The notes under the pieces: generated by a model | The model's database searches: none | Told to the model about the DNA's origin: nothing | Seen by the model: only the letters and a program-made list of their open reading frames with translations | Part shown: positions 32,367 to 35,842 of the stretch, in pieces | Layout: each line of letters begins with the position of its first letter | Position numbering within the stretch: the stretch's first letter is position 1 | NCBI GenBank assembly: GCA_003165595.1 | Contig: PLWQ01000028.1 | Span: forward strand, 320,168-376,119 | Source: Fibrobacterota bacterium | Lineage (GTDB): Bacteria; Fibrobacterota; Chitinivibrionia; Chitinivibrionales; FEN-1185 | Length of the DNA: 55,952 nt | Direction of reading: 5' to 3' | Translations under genes and position numbers: made by a program

Positions 32367-32403
32367 TTCCTATAGCAAATTCAGCAGATTTTTTGATCCT
32401 CTC

Positions 32404-32605
32404 GTGGTGGGGAAACCACTGCTTGGTTTCCCCTGGGGTGCAGCTTCCTCCCGCCGAAATCGGCGGGAGGCGATCTGCACCCACACCCTTTCCAGCAAAG
32501 GGGCGCGCCAAATGCGCTCGACTTGCGCTCGCGCGGCGTCGCCCCTTCGCAACGCAACCTTCAAGGAATGCCGCTCCGCGGAGATTATCCCTTTCGCAAA
32601 CCACG
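32404..32605 (+). repeat. Mosaic dispersed repeat, copy 1
   Basis: This shares three ordered blocks with the inverted copy at 35200-35441: GTGGGGAAACCACTG..GGTTTCCCCTGG (32407-32436), CACACCC(T/C)TTCCAGC (32482-32496) and CGCAACGC (32548-32555). Between the blocks the sequence differs but keeps hairpins, here CCTCCCGCCGAAATCGGCGGGAGG. No coding potential. It occupies much of the 526-nt space between clpB (ends 32366) and the next gene (32893); the rest, 32606-32892, is AT-rich. Confidence 0.7.
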
Positions 32606-32759
32606 GAAATAGAGGGAATTTGGGCAGATTGGGCTAAAGCATTGGCAGGGGAATTGCGGTATGTATTATATGGGCGAATTAAAATAGCGATTTTTCAAGA
32701 AATCTCTTGACAACTATTGCCCGGAGATTAATTATATTACTAAATAATATCCGCCAGGT

Positions 32760-32792
32760 AAGGTCAATTATATTCTGGGAGTTATTGACCTT
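32760..32792. promoter_or_regulatory. Inverted repeat, possible operator
   Basis: AAGGTCAAT (32760-32768) and ATTGACCTT (32784-32792) form a perfect 9-bp inverted repeat with a 15-nt spacer. It lies about 100 nt upstream of the gene at 32893, in AT-rich sequence. A TTGACA at 32821-32826 lies between them but has no good -10 at proper spacing. The repeat could be an operator for this two-gene unit. Confidence 0.4.
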
Positions 32793-32892
32793 GTTCATCT
32801 CATCTTCGGCGCAATTTCTTTTGACAGGCGATCGTGTATTTTATCCGGGTGCTTGTTGTCATTAATTGATAATAAGTAACAGGAGAAGGATA

Positions 32893-33141
32893 ATGAATAG
32901 TATTGCTTTGGATGAAAAGTCTCAGAAAATAATCAGAGACACCCTCAACATTTCATCGCTGGACGACATAGTTGACAGGGACTATAACGACCGTGTCCCT
33001 AGAGATGAAAAAGAAAAATTAATTGCCGAAGGCTTTGGTTCTTTTAATAGGGGTTCAGCAAGATTTGTTATGCGCTCTTTTTACACCTCAGATGAATTAA
33101 GAATGGCAGAAGATAAGTCCAACCACTTTACTCTCCCTTAG
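32893..33141 (+). CDS. Hypothetical small protein
   Basis: An 82-residue protein from the ATG at 32893, preceded by AGGAGAAGGA. It is highly charged (KSQKIIRDTLNISSLDDIVDRDYNDRVPRDEKEKLIAEGFGSF) with no membrane segment. I recognise no family. Composition is AT-rich relative to clpB and hrpA, which suggests recent acquisition. It ends 19 nt before the next gene, so the two are probably coexpressed. Confidence 0.55.
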   Translation: MNSIALDEKSQKIIRDTLNISSLDDIVDRDYNDRVPRDEKEKLIAEGFGSFNRGSARFVMRSFYTSDELRMAEDKSNHFTLP

Positions 33142-33160
33142 ATTGGTGGCTATCCCAATA

Positions 33161-33916
33161 ATGCCACCAATCAATTCTCTGTCCACAGACGAAAATGAAC
33201 TTTTTGGAAAAACCCTGGAACTGTATTTCAGGGCCAAGGCATTAATCGCTTTTAGTGAAGAAATAGACCCTAATTCAAAAATAAACCCCCAGATTTGGAA
33301 GGAATTGCGCGACGCCCTCGATCATTTTATGAGGGTTTTTGGAGACATAATCCGTGATGGTAGCAAGAGAACTCAAAACCCAAAATACTATCATGAGAAT
33401 CTAGATAAATCGCATGGACACGTTTATAGAGCGGCTTTTGACGCGCTAGATGGCGCTTCTATTTCAATCCGAAAACAAATTGTCGATTGGTGTGGCGCTT
33501 ATAAACAAGAAATACTGACAGAAGTCGTCTCTGGATATTGGGACAAACGATTAAGGTTAGAGCAGGTCAATTCTACCATTGCTGATTTGAGAACCAAAAA
33601 AGACGTTGCCTGCGACGAGAGCATTGGAATAATTGATAGCTATGTGGCAATATTGGATGAACTGAAAAACCATAGAGATTTTTTTCTAAAATCAATGCCC
33701 TTGTTGGAAGAATGCAAGAAAGGGAAGGTGCTTGAGGAAAAAAGAAGAAAGCGCAAGGAGTTTATTTCAAAGATAATTTGGATTATAATATCTGCAATCG
33801 TAAGTGGAGCAATAACAACATTGTGTTTCACTGCCTCTCAAGAACAAATTAAGAGATCAATTCCGCCAACTATTCAGCAGAGAGATAGCACAAACACTCG
33901 CCAGAAAACCCAATAG
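33161..33916 (+). CDS. Hypothetical protein with one C-terminal membrane segment
   Basis: A 251-residue protein if started at the ATG 33161, which has GGTGG 11 nt upstream; an in-frame TTG at 33143 is an alternative. The first 200 residues are helical and charged, including a long coiled-coil-like part (DELKNHRDFFLKSMPLLEECKKGKVLEEKRRKRK). A single membrane helix follows (IIWIIISAIVSGAITTLCF), with a short polar tail. No catalytic motif was found. The low GC content and the small upstream partner fit an accessory or defence-type module, but that is speculation. Confidence 0.55.
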   Translation: MPPINSLSTDENELFGKTLELYFRAKALIAFSEEIDPNSKINPQIWKELRDALDHFMRVFGDIIRDGSKRTQNPKYYHENLDKSHGHVYRAAFDALDGASISIRKQIVDWCGAYKQEILTEVVSGYWDKRLRLEQVNSTIADLRTKKDVACDESIGIIDSYVAILDELKNHRDFFLKSMPLLEECKKGKVLEEKRRKRKEFISKIIWIIISAIVSGAITTLCFTASQEQIKRSIPPTIQQRDSTNTRQKTQ

Positions 33917-33918
33917 GT

Positions 33919-34041
33919 TCATTTCTTCCTTTCCCTTGATATTTTCTTCTTCGGTATTTTAACCTTTATAGCCCCGGCAAGAGCTTGATCCATTGACAAT
34001 GGCGCAAGAGAAATCTTTCGTTGATCCTTCTTTTTGCCCAT
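33919..34041 (-). CDS. Small basic protein of 40 residues
   Basis: The reading frame is ATG (34039-34041) to TGA (33919-33921). The product is Lys/Arg-rich (16 basic residues of 40), with the core ISLAPLSMDQALAGAIKVK. The start has a strong AAGGGGG 7 nt upstream. The LAPLS-x2-x-AL-x-x-A pattern resembles short basic proteins found beside toxin genes in environmental genomes, but I cannot name a family. It is convergent with the membrane protein gene (33161-33916) and divergent from the gene at 34263. Confidence 0.55.
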   Translation of the reverse strand: MGKKKDQRKISLAPLSMDQALAGAIKVKIPKKKISRERKK

Positions 34042-34210
34042 ACAATAACCCCCTTGATTTTGCTTTACCAAATATCATTTGTTATTCTTAGAAAAAAGAT
34101 AACATAAAAACGTAATATTTGTGAGAGCTTTTTTGAAAAGCGAGGAAGCTTGCTTGTATGCTTGTTACGCACTGGCGAAACATGATGGCAAAATATTTTG
34201 CGAAATTGTT

Positions 34211-34242
34211 TTGCACTTATCCTAAAATATGTTATATTAGGA
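34211..34242 (+). promoter_or_regulatory. Promoter with palindromic operator
   Basis: TTGCAC (34211-34216), a 16-nt spacer and TATATT (34233-34238) form a sigma-70-type promoter. A 23-nt imperfect palindrome, TCCTAA...TTAGGA (34220-34242, 18 of 23 positions symmetric), covers the spacer and the -10 box. That is a typical place for a repressor operator. It lies 21 nt before the ATG at 34263. Confidence 0.6.
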
Positions 34243-34262
34243 GCGTAACAGAAAGGACCAAT

Positions 34263-34694
34263 ATGAACCAAATGGATTTCCCCTCCGCTGTAGAAGAGAT
34301 TGTAGCCATACAAAAGAAGTGCGCAAAACTTCAACAGGATGCTGCTGAGATTGCGCAAAGAACTGAGAAGGTCAGCCTTTTCCTTTGTAAATTGATTGGT
34401 CGAAAGCCCGAAAAGGATCCTGTTGAATTACCCCAATTGGTTGTGCTGAGCGGAGACGAAGATAACGATGGATCGTGGAGAGATGTTCTGATTAGCGACC
34501 TCAAGGAAAACGGCAAAAGCTACACTAGCGATATCCTGGAGAGGATAAAACACATAAAAAAGGTTCGGACTCCAGAAGAGGAAAAGAGCCTTGCAAACAA
34601 TATTCGAACAAATCTTGCACGATTCAGGAAGGAAAATTTGGTAAAGAGCGAAGCAGACGCGGATGGCATAAGGATGCTTTGGGAAGCGTTATAG
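34263..34694 (+). CDS. Hypothetical protein, possibly DNA-binding
   Basis: A 143-residue protein from the ATG at 34263 (GAAAGGACC upstream). Residues 1-55 are a coiled coil (VEEIVAIQKKCAKLQQDAAEIAQRTEK). The C-terminal half (SWRDVLISDLKENGKSYTSDILERI...LANNIRTNLARFRKENLVKSE) looks like a winged helix. It may regulate its own palindromic promoter. I recognise no family. It immediately precedes the structured RNA and tRNA described next. Confidence 0.6.
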   Translation: MNQMDFPSAVEEIVAIQKKCAKLQQDAAEIAQRTEKVSLFLCKLIGRKPEKDPVELPQLVVLSGDEDNDGSWRDVLISDLKENGKSYTSDILERIKHIKKVRTPEEEKSLANNIRTNLARFRKENLVKSEADADGIRMLWEAL

Positions 34695-34724
34695 AAGGGA
34701 GTGGATATGCATCTACTAACAGCA

Positions 34725-34869
34725 AGTGGTGCAGGGTGGTCTCTCGATCTGTGCCACTGGAAACAACAATAAGAAAGGCAACTTCTTGGGGAAGTTGCCT
34801 TGCGGGCTAGTTAGCCCCTTATTGGACCAAGAAGAACAAATCAGGGGGTGATTCAAATCGCCTCCTGAT
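34725..34869 (+). ncRNA. Array of four perfect hairpins, candidate structured RNA
   Basis: Four consecutive stems occur in 145 nt. H1 is 34725-34758 (10 bp including two G-U pairs, 14-nt loop). H2 is 34775-34801 (AAGGCAACTTC paired with GAAGTTGCCTT, 11 bp, loop TTGGG). H3 is 34804-34817 (GGGCT/AGCCC). H4 is 34840-34869 (13 bp with two G-U pairs, loop TCAA). None is followed by a T run. Such packing without an open frame indicates a folded RNA, and it ends 8 nt before a tRNA. I match it to no known RNA class. Orientation is inferred from the tRNA. Confidence 0.6.
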
Positions 34870-34877
34870 CTCTTGAT

Positions 34878-34963
34878 GCGCGTGTGACGAAACTGGTAGA
34901 CGTGAACGACCTGGAATCGTTTTTGGGTAACACTAAATCCGGGTTCGAATCCCGGCACGCGCA
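34878..34963 (+). tRNA. Class II (Leu-like) tRNA with UGG anticodon and C33
   Basis: The 86-nt cloverleaf folds fully. The acceptor is GCGCGTG/CACGCGC (7 bp) with discriminator A. The D stem is 3 bp (ACG/CGT) with a GGTAGA loop as in tRNA-Leu. The anticodon stem is AACGA/TCGTT. The variable arm has 5 bp (TTTGG/CTAAA), and the T arm is CCGGG-TTCGAAT-CCCGG. The 7-nt anticodon loop is CCTGGAA, which gives anticodon UGG (Pro codon CCA) and C at position 33 where U is nearly invariant. CCA is not encoded. It may be a decayed tRNA-Leu, a mobile-element tRNA or a recoding tRNA. Confidence 0.7.
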
Positions 34964-35199
34964 TTTCTTAATATACGACATTTTCTTTCTATTGTCAAAT
35001 TTTGCTAGTGCAAAACATTTTTACCCAACTTTGCGTATTGGGGCTCTGTACATCAGCCGCTTTCCCTCCCTCTGAGCAAGTGCCGCCGTCGTCCTGTCGC
35101 AATCGTCCGCTTTGCGATAGGTTCATCTGTATGCGAACTCATCAGCATACTTCTGCAAATGCCACGGAGAAACAGGGTGAAATCTTCCGTTGATGCACA
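34964..35199. other. Spacer between the tRNA and the mosaic repeat
   Basis: It is AT-rich until about 35040, then mixed. I see no open frame with a ribosome-binding site, no hairpin with a T run and no integrase or attachment-site duplicate of the tRNA 3' end. Confidence 0.4.
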
Positions 35200-35441
35200 C
35201 TCCTACAGGAGGGCGTTGCGGGAACGCGACACGCGCATTGCGCAAGCAATGCGCATCGTGAGCGTTCCCGCTGGAAGGGGTGTGCCCCCCCGGGATCACC
35301 GGCGCATAGCGCCGGAGCCGAAGGCCTGGACGGCCGAGAGGCGACCTGCGAAGCAGGGGCCGAAAGGCCACCGAACAGGATGTGAGGTGCAACCCGGGGG
35401 CCAGGGGAAACCGCGCAGTGGTTTCCCCACCAACTTCTCAA
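35200..35441 (-). repeat. Mosaic dispersed repeat, copy 2 (inverted)
   Basis: This is the counterpart of 32404-32605 on the opposite strand: CGCAACGC (35213-35220), CACACCCCTTCCAGC (35270-35284) and the paired GTGGGGAAACCACTG/GGTTTCCCCTGG block (35401-35432) occur in the same order. Internal hairpins are strong, e.g. GCGCATTGC-GCAA-GCAATGCGC (35233-35254) and CCGGCGC/GCGCCGG nearby. The two copies bracket the low-GC genes, the hairpin array and the tRNA. Confidence 0.7.
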
Positions 35442-35481: not shown

Positions 35482-35842
35482 ATGCTCTCAATTATATCCG
35501 GCAACCGAATTCCCATAAAATCGTGGTGCAGGGACATCGAGCCCGGCGCCATGAAACAGGCAATCAACCTGACGAAACTCCCTTTTGTCTACGGTCATGT
35601 CGCACTCATGGCCGATTGCCACGAGGGCTTTGGCATGCCTATTGGTGGGGTAATTGCCTGCAAGGACGCAATCGTGCCCAACGCCGTCGGCGTGGACATC
35701 GGCTGCGGCATGTGCGCGGTACAAAATCGACCTGAGCGAGGCGCCCCAGGCCTATAAAAATATCGACCGCGTCATCGACGCGCAGAAGGATCTGGTTGAG
35801 GTGCTGGTGAAGCTAAAGCCGCTTGGAGTGGTGAAGGGATAG
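35482..35842 (+). pseudogene. rtcB: Internally deleted RNA ligase RtcB
   Basis: The first about 80 codons encode an RtcB N-terminus (IKSWCRDIEPGAMKQA, FVYGHVALMADCHEGFGMPIGGV, NAVGVDIGCGMCAV), including metal-binding Cys and His residues. At about 35720 the frame shifts and the sequence jumps to the RtcB C-terminus (KIDLSEAPQAYKNIDRVIDAQKDLVEVLVKLKPLGVVKG, stop). Roughly 250-350 central residues with the rest of the active site, including the guanylated His, are missing. RtcB is normally about 400-480 residues. This copy cannot be an active 3'-phosphate RNA ligase. It may have been lost through the adjoining repeat. Confidence 0.85.

Follow-up and report, generated by a model that had tools for sequence, protein, structure and literature searches.

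A tightly folded hairpin array beside a leucine-type tRNA with a proline anticodon in a Fibrobacterota genome

Intrinsic terminators can stand in tandem, with one hairpin and its T-rich tail following another on the same strand. GOLLD and ROOL are structured RNAs of unknown function located near tRNAs, often near tRNA islands, and are described as large, ornate and tied to phages and prophages (PMC12286853). Natural mismatches between tRNA body and anticodon are described for tRNA-ProX of Streptomyces and Kitasatospora and for the allo-tRNAs, which have proline- or serine-type bodies (PMC11415595, PMC7609411), and in some other mistranslating tRNAs U33 is replaced by G33 or A33 (PMC11415595). 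The leucyl-tRNA synthetase of E. coli (LeuRS) is reported to need A73, the elbow contacts, A15-U48 and A20a, not the anticodon or the variable arm, and to charge molecules that are devoid of both arms (PMC9976931). SdsR and RyeA, a cis-encoded toxin/antitoxin RNA pair of E. coli, are small RNAs encoded on the two strands of a single locus (PMC6610125). Among the top matches listed in open-access literature searches, there was no bacterial tRNA with a dedicated antisense RNA and no report on a leucine-bodied tRNA(UGG).

In the window, by which we mean the whole stretch of 55,952 nt that was analysed, we found a tightly folded array of hairpins adjoining a tRNA that combines a leucine-type body and a proline anticodon, and this array is real (Table 1). 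The array (34725-34869) folds at −65.6 kcal/mol with a z-score of −6.43, with none of 200 dinucleotide shuffles being equally stable, and the + strand of 34700-34876 reaches −75.6 kcal/mol (z −6.12). When the whole window was scanned in 145-nt windows with a 25-nt step and the effect of GC content was regressed out, the most stable + strand stretch was the one at 34726. The stems listed by a sequence-only reading of this DNA are all in place in the computed folds, as P1, P2, P3 and P4. They do not form four separate hairpins in a row: P2 and P3 are enclosed in a three-way junction whose closing stem is CAATAAG/CTTATTG (34767-34773/34818-34824), and a fifth hairpin, P0, precedes them. Similarly, a distance of 8 nt between array and tRNA is correct for the P4 stem, which ends at 34869, but an outer extension of P4 on the + strand (34828-34835/34869-34875) leaves a gap of 2 nt.

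Table 1. Features of the array, the tRNA and the surrounding insert, in window coordinates; energies are in kcal/mol.
Feature	Position	Strand	Description
AT-rich insert	32405-35432	either	flanked on both sides by a dispersed GC-rich repeat, in inverted orientation
143-aa ORF	34263-34694	+	own promoter-like site at 34210-34238; a + strand transcript may run on into array and tRNA
P0	34700-34717	+	7-bp hairpin directly past the stop of the 143-aa ORF; −5.1 on +, −0.8 on −
P1	34725-34758	+	11 bp, one 1x1 mismatch and 3 bp, with G.U pairs; −15.3 on +, −7.0 on −
Three-way junction	34767-34824	either	7-bp stem around P2 and P3; −28.3 on +, −27.4 on −
P2	34775-34801	−	11-12 bp hairpin (12 bp on +); T-rich tail on −; candidate antisense terminator
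P3	34804-34817	either	5-bp hairpin
P4	34840-34869	either	13-bp hairpin; −19.4 on +, −12.0 on −
tRNA	34878-34963	+	leucine-type class II body, A73, anticodon TGG (Pro), C33; ARAGORN, RF00005
Predicted antisense RNA	34765-34964	−	~200 nt, putative start at the tRNA 3' end and putative end at P2
Sigma-70 type promoter-like site	34970-34998	−	TTGACA-17-TATATT; faces the tRNA in antisense, towards the hairpins

Rfam 15 at gathering thresholds matched nothing in the whole window other than tRNA, and when 34600-35000 was searched up to E 10 the tRNA was the sole match above its gathering score, in line with the earlier statement that the array fits no recognised class. A comparison with GOLLD and ROOL, which had been suggested there, gave no covariance-model match at gathering thresholds in the window or up to E 10 in 34600-35000, and no T-box leader was matched up to E 10 in that interval. 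P1 contains AGGGTGGT (34725-34740), which resembles the T-box core, a likeness that we take to be probably due to chance. With its 7-bp stem, an ACCA following that stem and UGG in the loop of P2, the three-way junction also resembles a D-armless tRNA, a reading that we dropped since RF00005 has no match there. A survey for relatives of the array, likewise suggested by the sequence-only reading, returned no sequence homologue among the genomes, phages and plasmids searched: the array DNA found itself alone in its own genome, one match in 100 relatives, which is the tRNA 3' end in a Chitinispirillaceae genome (G031), and short tRNA matches or none in phages and plasmids. Sequence patterns placed on the tRNA and its tail found none in viral contigs, and a scan of species genomes with the tRNA pattern yielded one contig, that of the G031 locus. 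Compensatory changes were seen in the tRNA only. Overall, a structured element that lies directly upstream of an odd tRNA and belongs to no known class is supported.

Upon examining the tRNA, we observe a score of 51.6 bits against RF00005 (gathering cut-off 29), within the range of the other class II sized tRNAs of the genome, and a leucine-like body, with A73, a long variable arm and a D loop that contains GGTAGACG. The extracted tRNAs that we take to be those of the same genome, from a table that also includes loci of relatives, comprise five Leu isoacceptors and an ordinary tRNA-Pro(TGG), so this tRNA is an extra one. The leucine determinants described for E. coli (PMC9976931), A73, A14, A15-U48, G18G19, A20a and the T-loop contacts, are present both here and in its single relative; because the nucleotides required by LeuRS are present, the window tRNA is likely to be charged with leucine, and likely to read CCA as leucine. 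The anticodon loop, CCTGGAA, departs from the canonical elongator in having C33 instead of U33, which would weaken decoding.

Among 167 Fibrobacterota genomes this tRNA was found in one besides its own, the Chitinispirillaceae MAG G031 (locus L091, contig JAFGNB010000110.1), where it also combines a class II leucine-type body with a UGG (Pro) anticodon. The two tRNAs agree in 12 of 35 columns within the anticodon and variable arms, with the TGG anticodon kept, and in 47 of 52 columns elsewhere, which is where the LeuRS determinants lie (PMC9976931). Six base pairs are changed on both sides, and the variable arms share one pair that is G.U when read on the + strand. The relative keeps U33 and has lost one anticodon stem pair (U.U). 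Since the double changes at the six pairs maintain pairing, the tRNA cloverleaf appears to be under selection.

A promoter-like site facing the tRNA, which the earlier reading had missed, lies 5-6 nt past the tRNA 3' end in both the window and the relative (L091 262-234), with a score of 11/12 in each. All 12 hexamer positions are identical, against 6 of the 17 in the spacer (Fisher p = 0.0004), a conservation that, with two loci only, constitutes one evolutionary comparison. Across 59 distinct tRNA 3' flanks of at least 50 nt, drawn from the best-scoring loci returned and not from all tRNAs of all genomes, these two alone reach 11/12 and the other 57 score at most 9. As a further control we used the loci matched by R1, a covariance model of the antisense promoter plus tRNA that matched 166 of the 167 genomes since ordinary Leu tRNAs also fit it; these loci, likewise the best-scoring ones returned, served only as a control, and among their 37 tRNAs only the window and the relative exceed 9. 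On the + strand, no promoter-like site was found between the promoter of the 143-aa ORF and the tRNA. The best promoter signal, which is also the one kept in the sole relative, faces the opposite way.

The sequence-only reading had also remarked that no T run follows any of the stems, which stands for the + strand and fails for the − strand, where 8 of the first 12 nt past P2 are T, as are 8 of the first 12 past P4 (0.29 expected per base). Directly behind P4 on that strand is TTGTTCTTCTTG, making P4 the candidate first terminator there, and the tails are interrupted and are not T runs. P2 (34801-34775, −) passes the consensus terminator scan and P4 a looser one; in the latter scan they rank sixth and eighth of the 12 listed, with other, looser hairpins of the region scoring better. 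The predicted antisense RNA has a fold z-score of −5.8 in the window, and its equivalent in the relative, of ~190 nt, one of −4.4. The 142 nt upstream of the relative's tRNA, which is as far as its locus reaches, are structured as well (z −3.2; −4.8 with 60 shuffles of 141 nt), with hairpins that are unrelated to those of the window array. When both strands of L091 1-2300 were scanned, the most stable hairpin-plus-T site (−22.6 kcal/mol) proved to lie upstream of the tRNA, on the − strand, and its hairpin is followed by T6. The hairpin position is kept between window and relative and the sequence is not, as expected for terminators, and the recurrence of hairpins here without sequence likeness would be explained if the array were the 3' end of an antisense RNA.

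The relative's contig holds a further element at L091:1501-1660, in which four hairpins come after a promoter-like TTGATA-17-TATATT, and a T-rich tail follows the fourth. It is adjoined by an odd tRNA-Ser(gct) without a long variable arm, and is likely a second small RNA gene beside an odd tRNA.

Regarding the strand, the minimum free energy (MFE) fold of 34700-34876 on + contains nine G.U pairs, of which five are interior to helices, and no A.C 1x1 mismatches; the complement strand has A.C mismatches in P4 (two) and in P0. This agrees with the earlier view of G-U pairs as the mark of RNA, with the limit that the sign test on 5:0 interior G.U versus A.C (p = 0.03) is biased because MFE folding prefers G.U. 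Over the shared 112 nt (34765-34876) the fold is −53.4 kcal/mol with z −6.8 on + and −45.9 kcal/mol with z −5.3 on −. Additionally, P4, P1 and P0 pair better on + than on −, with P1 and P0 being weak on −. The G.U pairing favours a + strand RNA; since both pairing and z-scores favour +, both strands may be transcribed. The scan found no terminator-like + strand site between the 143-aa ORF and the tRNA, and it is possible that array and tRNA share one + strand transcript.

The block that carries these features is bounded by repeats at 32405-32436 and 35401-35432, which are inverted and 94% complementary, and the stretches containing them match the genome at 38 and 58 places, their own positions counted. 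This GC-rich structured repeat of ~200 nt (32380-32600, 35200-35432), with its dozens of genome matches, is present in a genome of the same genus (G001) too. In G001, the interval between the ClpB gene and RtcB holds no tRNA and one gene that we take, from its sequence alone, to be serine-protease-like; because of this difference the block is an insertion or replacement. Compared with G001, RtcB of the window (35482-35840) is a remnant with a large internal deletion. The insert holds three ORFs, of 91, 257 and 143 aa. The 91-aa ORF has no family match. The 257-aa protein (33143-33916) shows a weak likeness to SLATT 2TM effectors, with Pfam SLATT_5 at E 0.0015, below the cut-off, and the PADLOC RT-associated SLATT model at E 0.004, and its gene is possibly a defence gene on the insert. 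The 143-aa ORF has no significant family match, no relatives in the plasmids, phages and viral contigs searched and one weak match in the phylum (E 3e-4), and its AlphaFold2 model from single sequence is poor (pLDDT 54).

Furthermore, a pattern combining a leucine-type D loop, a TGG anticodon and a long variable arm matches 18 viral contigs. Six IMG/VR contigs (L125, L128, L129, L132, L133 and L141) carry clean class II tRNAs with TGG, as judged by ARAGORN and by eye, and the remaining 12 show other anticodons, unclear cases or no tRNA call. In five of the six, the TGG tRNA is the only tRNA called on the stretch examined. The upstream z-scores of eight viral tRNAs, namely these six together with L127 and L137, are −3.8 (L141), −3.7 (L127) and −2.8 (L125), with the other five between −0.9 and 1.5. 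An antisense site scoring 11/12 was found in L129, inside a palindrome that resembles a + strand terminator, and the other seven score at most 9. The hybrid tRNA recurs; the array and the antisense promoter as a rule do not. Leaving the array aside, the six viral leucine-bodied tRNA(UGG) suggest that such hybrids recur, and their charging and decoding are directly accessible to tests.

We tentatively consider the most likely role of the array to be that of the terminating end of an antisense RNA to the hybrid tRNA, in a sense/antisense module. At the centre of such a module would stand a mobile tRNA that joins a leucine body to a proline anticodon, and the array would form the upstream end of the module. 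The conserved promoter-like site just past the tRNA 3' end points into the tRNA; a ~200-nt RNA, antisense to the whole tRNA, would start there and would be stopped by P4 and then P2, which have sequence support as putative tandem − strand terminators with T-rich tails and would keep antisense transcription out of the upstream ORF. In + strand transcripts started at the ORF promoter, the same stretch would fold into a leader, to be cut from the tRNA by RNase P. More speculatively, the antisense RNA would restrain the tRNA, which if charged with leucine would misread Pro CCA codons. Counted against the antisense reading are the stronger fold on +, the A.C mismatches of P4 and the weakness of P1 and P0 on −, the interrupted tails and the better-scoring hairpins nearby, a promoter conservation seen in two loci only, the single antisense site among the eight viral tRNAs, the tRNA calls scoring on the + strand and the variable-arm G.U on + in both loci. 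The higher stability and z-score on +, five interior G.U pairs with no interior A.C, a P4 extension that stops 2 nt before the tRNA, and an ORF promoter-like site with no + strand terminator-like site before the tRNA would suit a + strand structured RNA, either a leader or a free-standing ncRNA, that is made from the ORF-promoter transcript and cut by RNase P, with the antisense promoter incidental or regulatory. We regard this as possible, if rather doubtful, given that no homologue of the array was found, that the relative has unrelated hairpins at the same position, with no nameable counterpart of P0 and P1, and that no + promoter was found close to array or tRNA.

A reading of the hairpins as what remains of mobile elements in an AT-rich insert, descended from inverted repeats and devoid of current RNA function, is unlikely. 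Such decay would be in keeping with a block lying inside an insert bounded by an inverted repeat with dozens of genome matches, a neighbouring RtcB gene reduced to a remnant, an array with no homologue and a 143-aa ORF with one weak match only; yet pairing in the helices is almost flawless and its wobble is that of a single strand, different families have kept both the promoter hexamers and the tRNA fold, and the array matches nothing else in its own genome. The position beside a tRNA and the T-box-like string in P1 recall a known tRNA-linked large RNA such as GOLLD or ROOL, or a T-box leader, which we regard as scarcely credible in view of the negative Rfam searches of the window at gathering thresholds and of 34600-35000 up to E 10. 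With ~175 nt the array is also far from the >800 nt described for many GOLLD members (PMC12286853). Returning to the antisense reading, its strongest form is a mobile RNA-only module resembling toxin-antitoxin systems, in which a leucine-charged, proline-codon-reading tRNA would be silenced by a full-length antisense RNA ending in the array; this form we hold to be quite improbable.

If the locus is transcribed as proposed, the inserted block would carry a tRNA gene paired with an antisense RNA of its own, and this tRNA is one likely to break the code at proline codons; if true, this would link natural code-breaking tRNAs with antisense-controlled RNA modules. The unusual element is the proposed arrangement of tRNA and antisense RNA, the array itself being without homologues found. 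Compared with tandem intrinsic terminators, the tails of the array are interrupted and its hairpins are more stable on the other strand. As with GOLLD and ROOL, a structured RNA of unknown function would lie near a tRNA, but those RNAs, as described, are far larger and more ornate (PMC12286853), and the array has no covariance-model match. The proposed pair resembles SdsR/RyeA in that two small RNAs would arise from opposite strands of one locus; neither of those is a tRNA, and their transcription and toxicity are shown, whereas here both are predicted (PMC6610125). The window tRNA shares a natural mismatch of body and anticodon with tRNA-ProX and the allo-tRNAs, and with some mistranslating tRNAs the loss of U33, having C33 instead (PMC11415595). 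It differs from the Pro or Ser-type bodies described for them in joining a Leu-type class II body to a Pro anticodon, and is set apart by its hairpin array and antisense promoter-like site (PMC11415595, PMC7609411).
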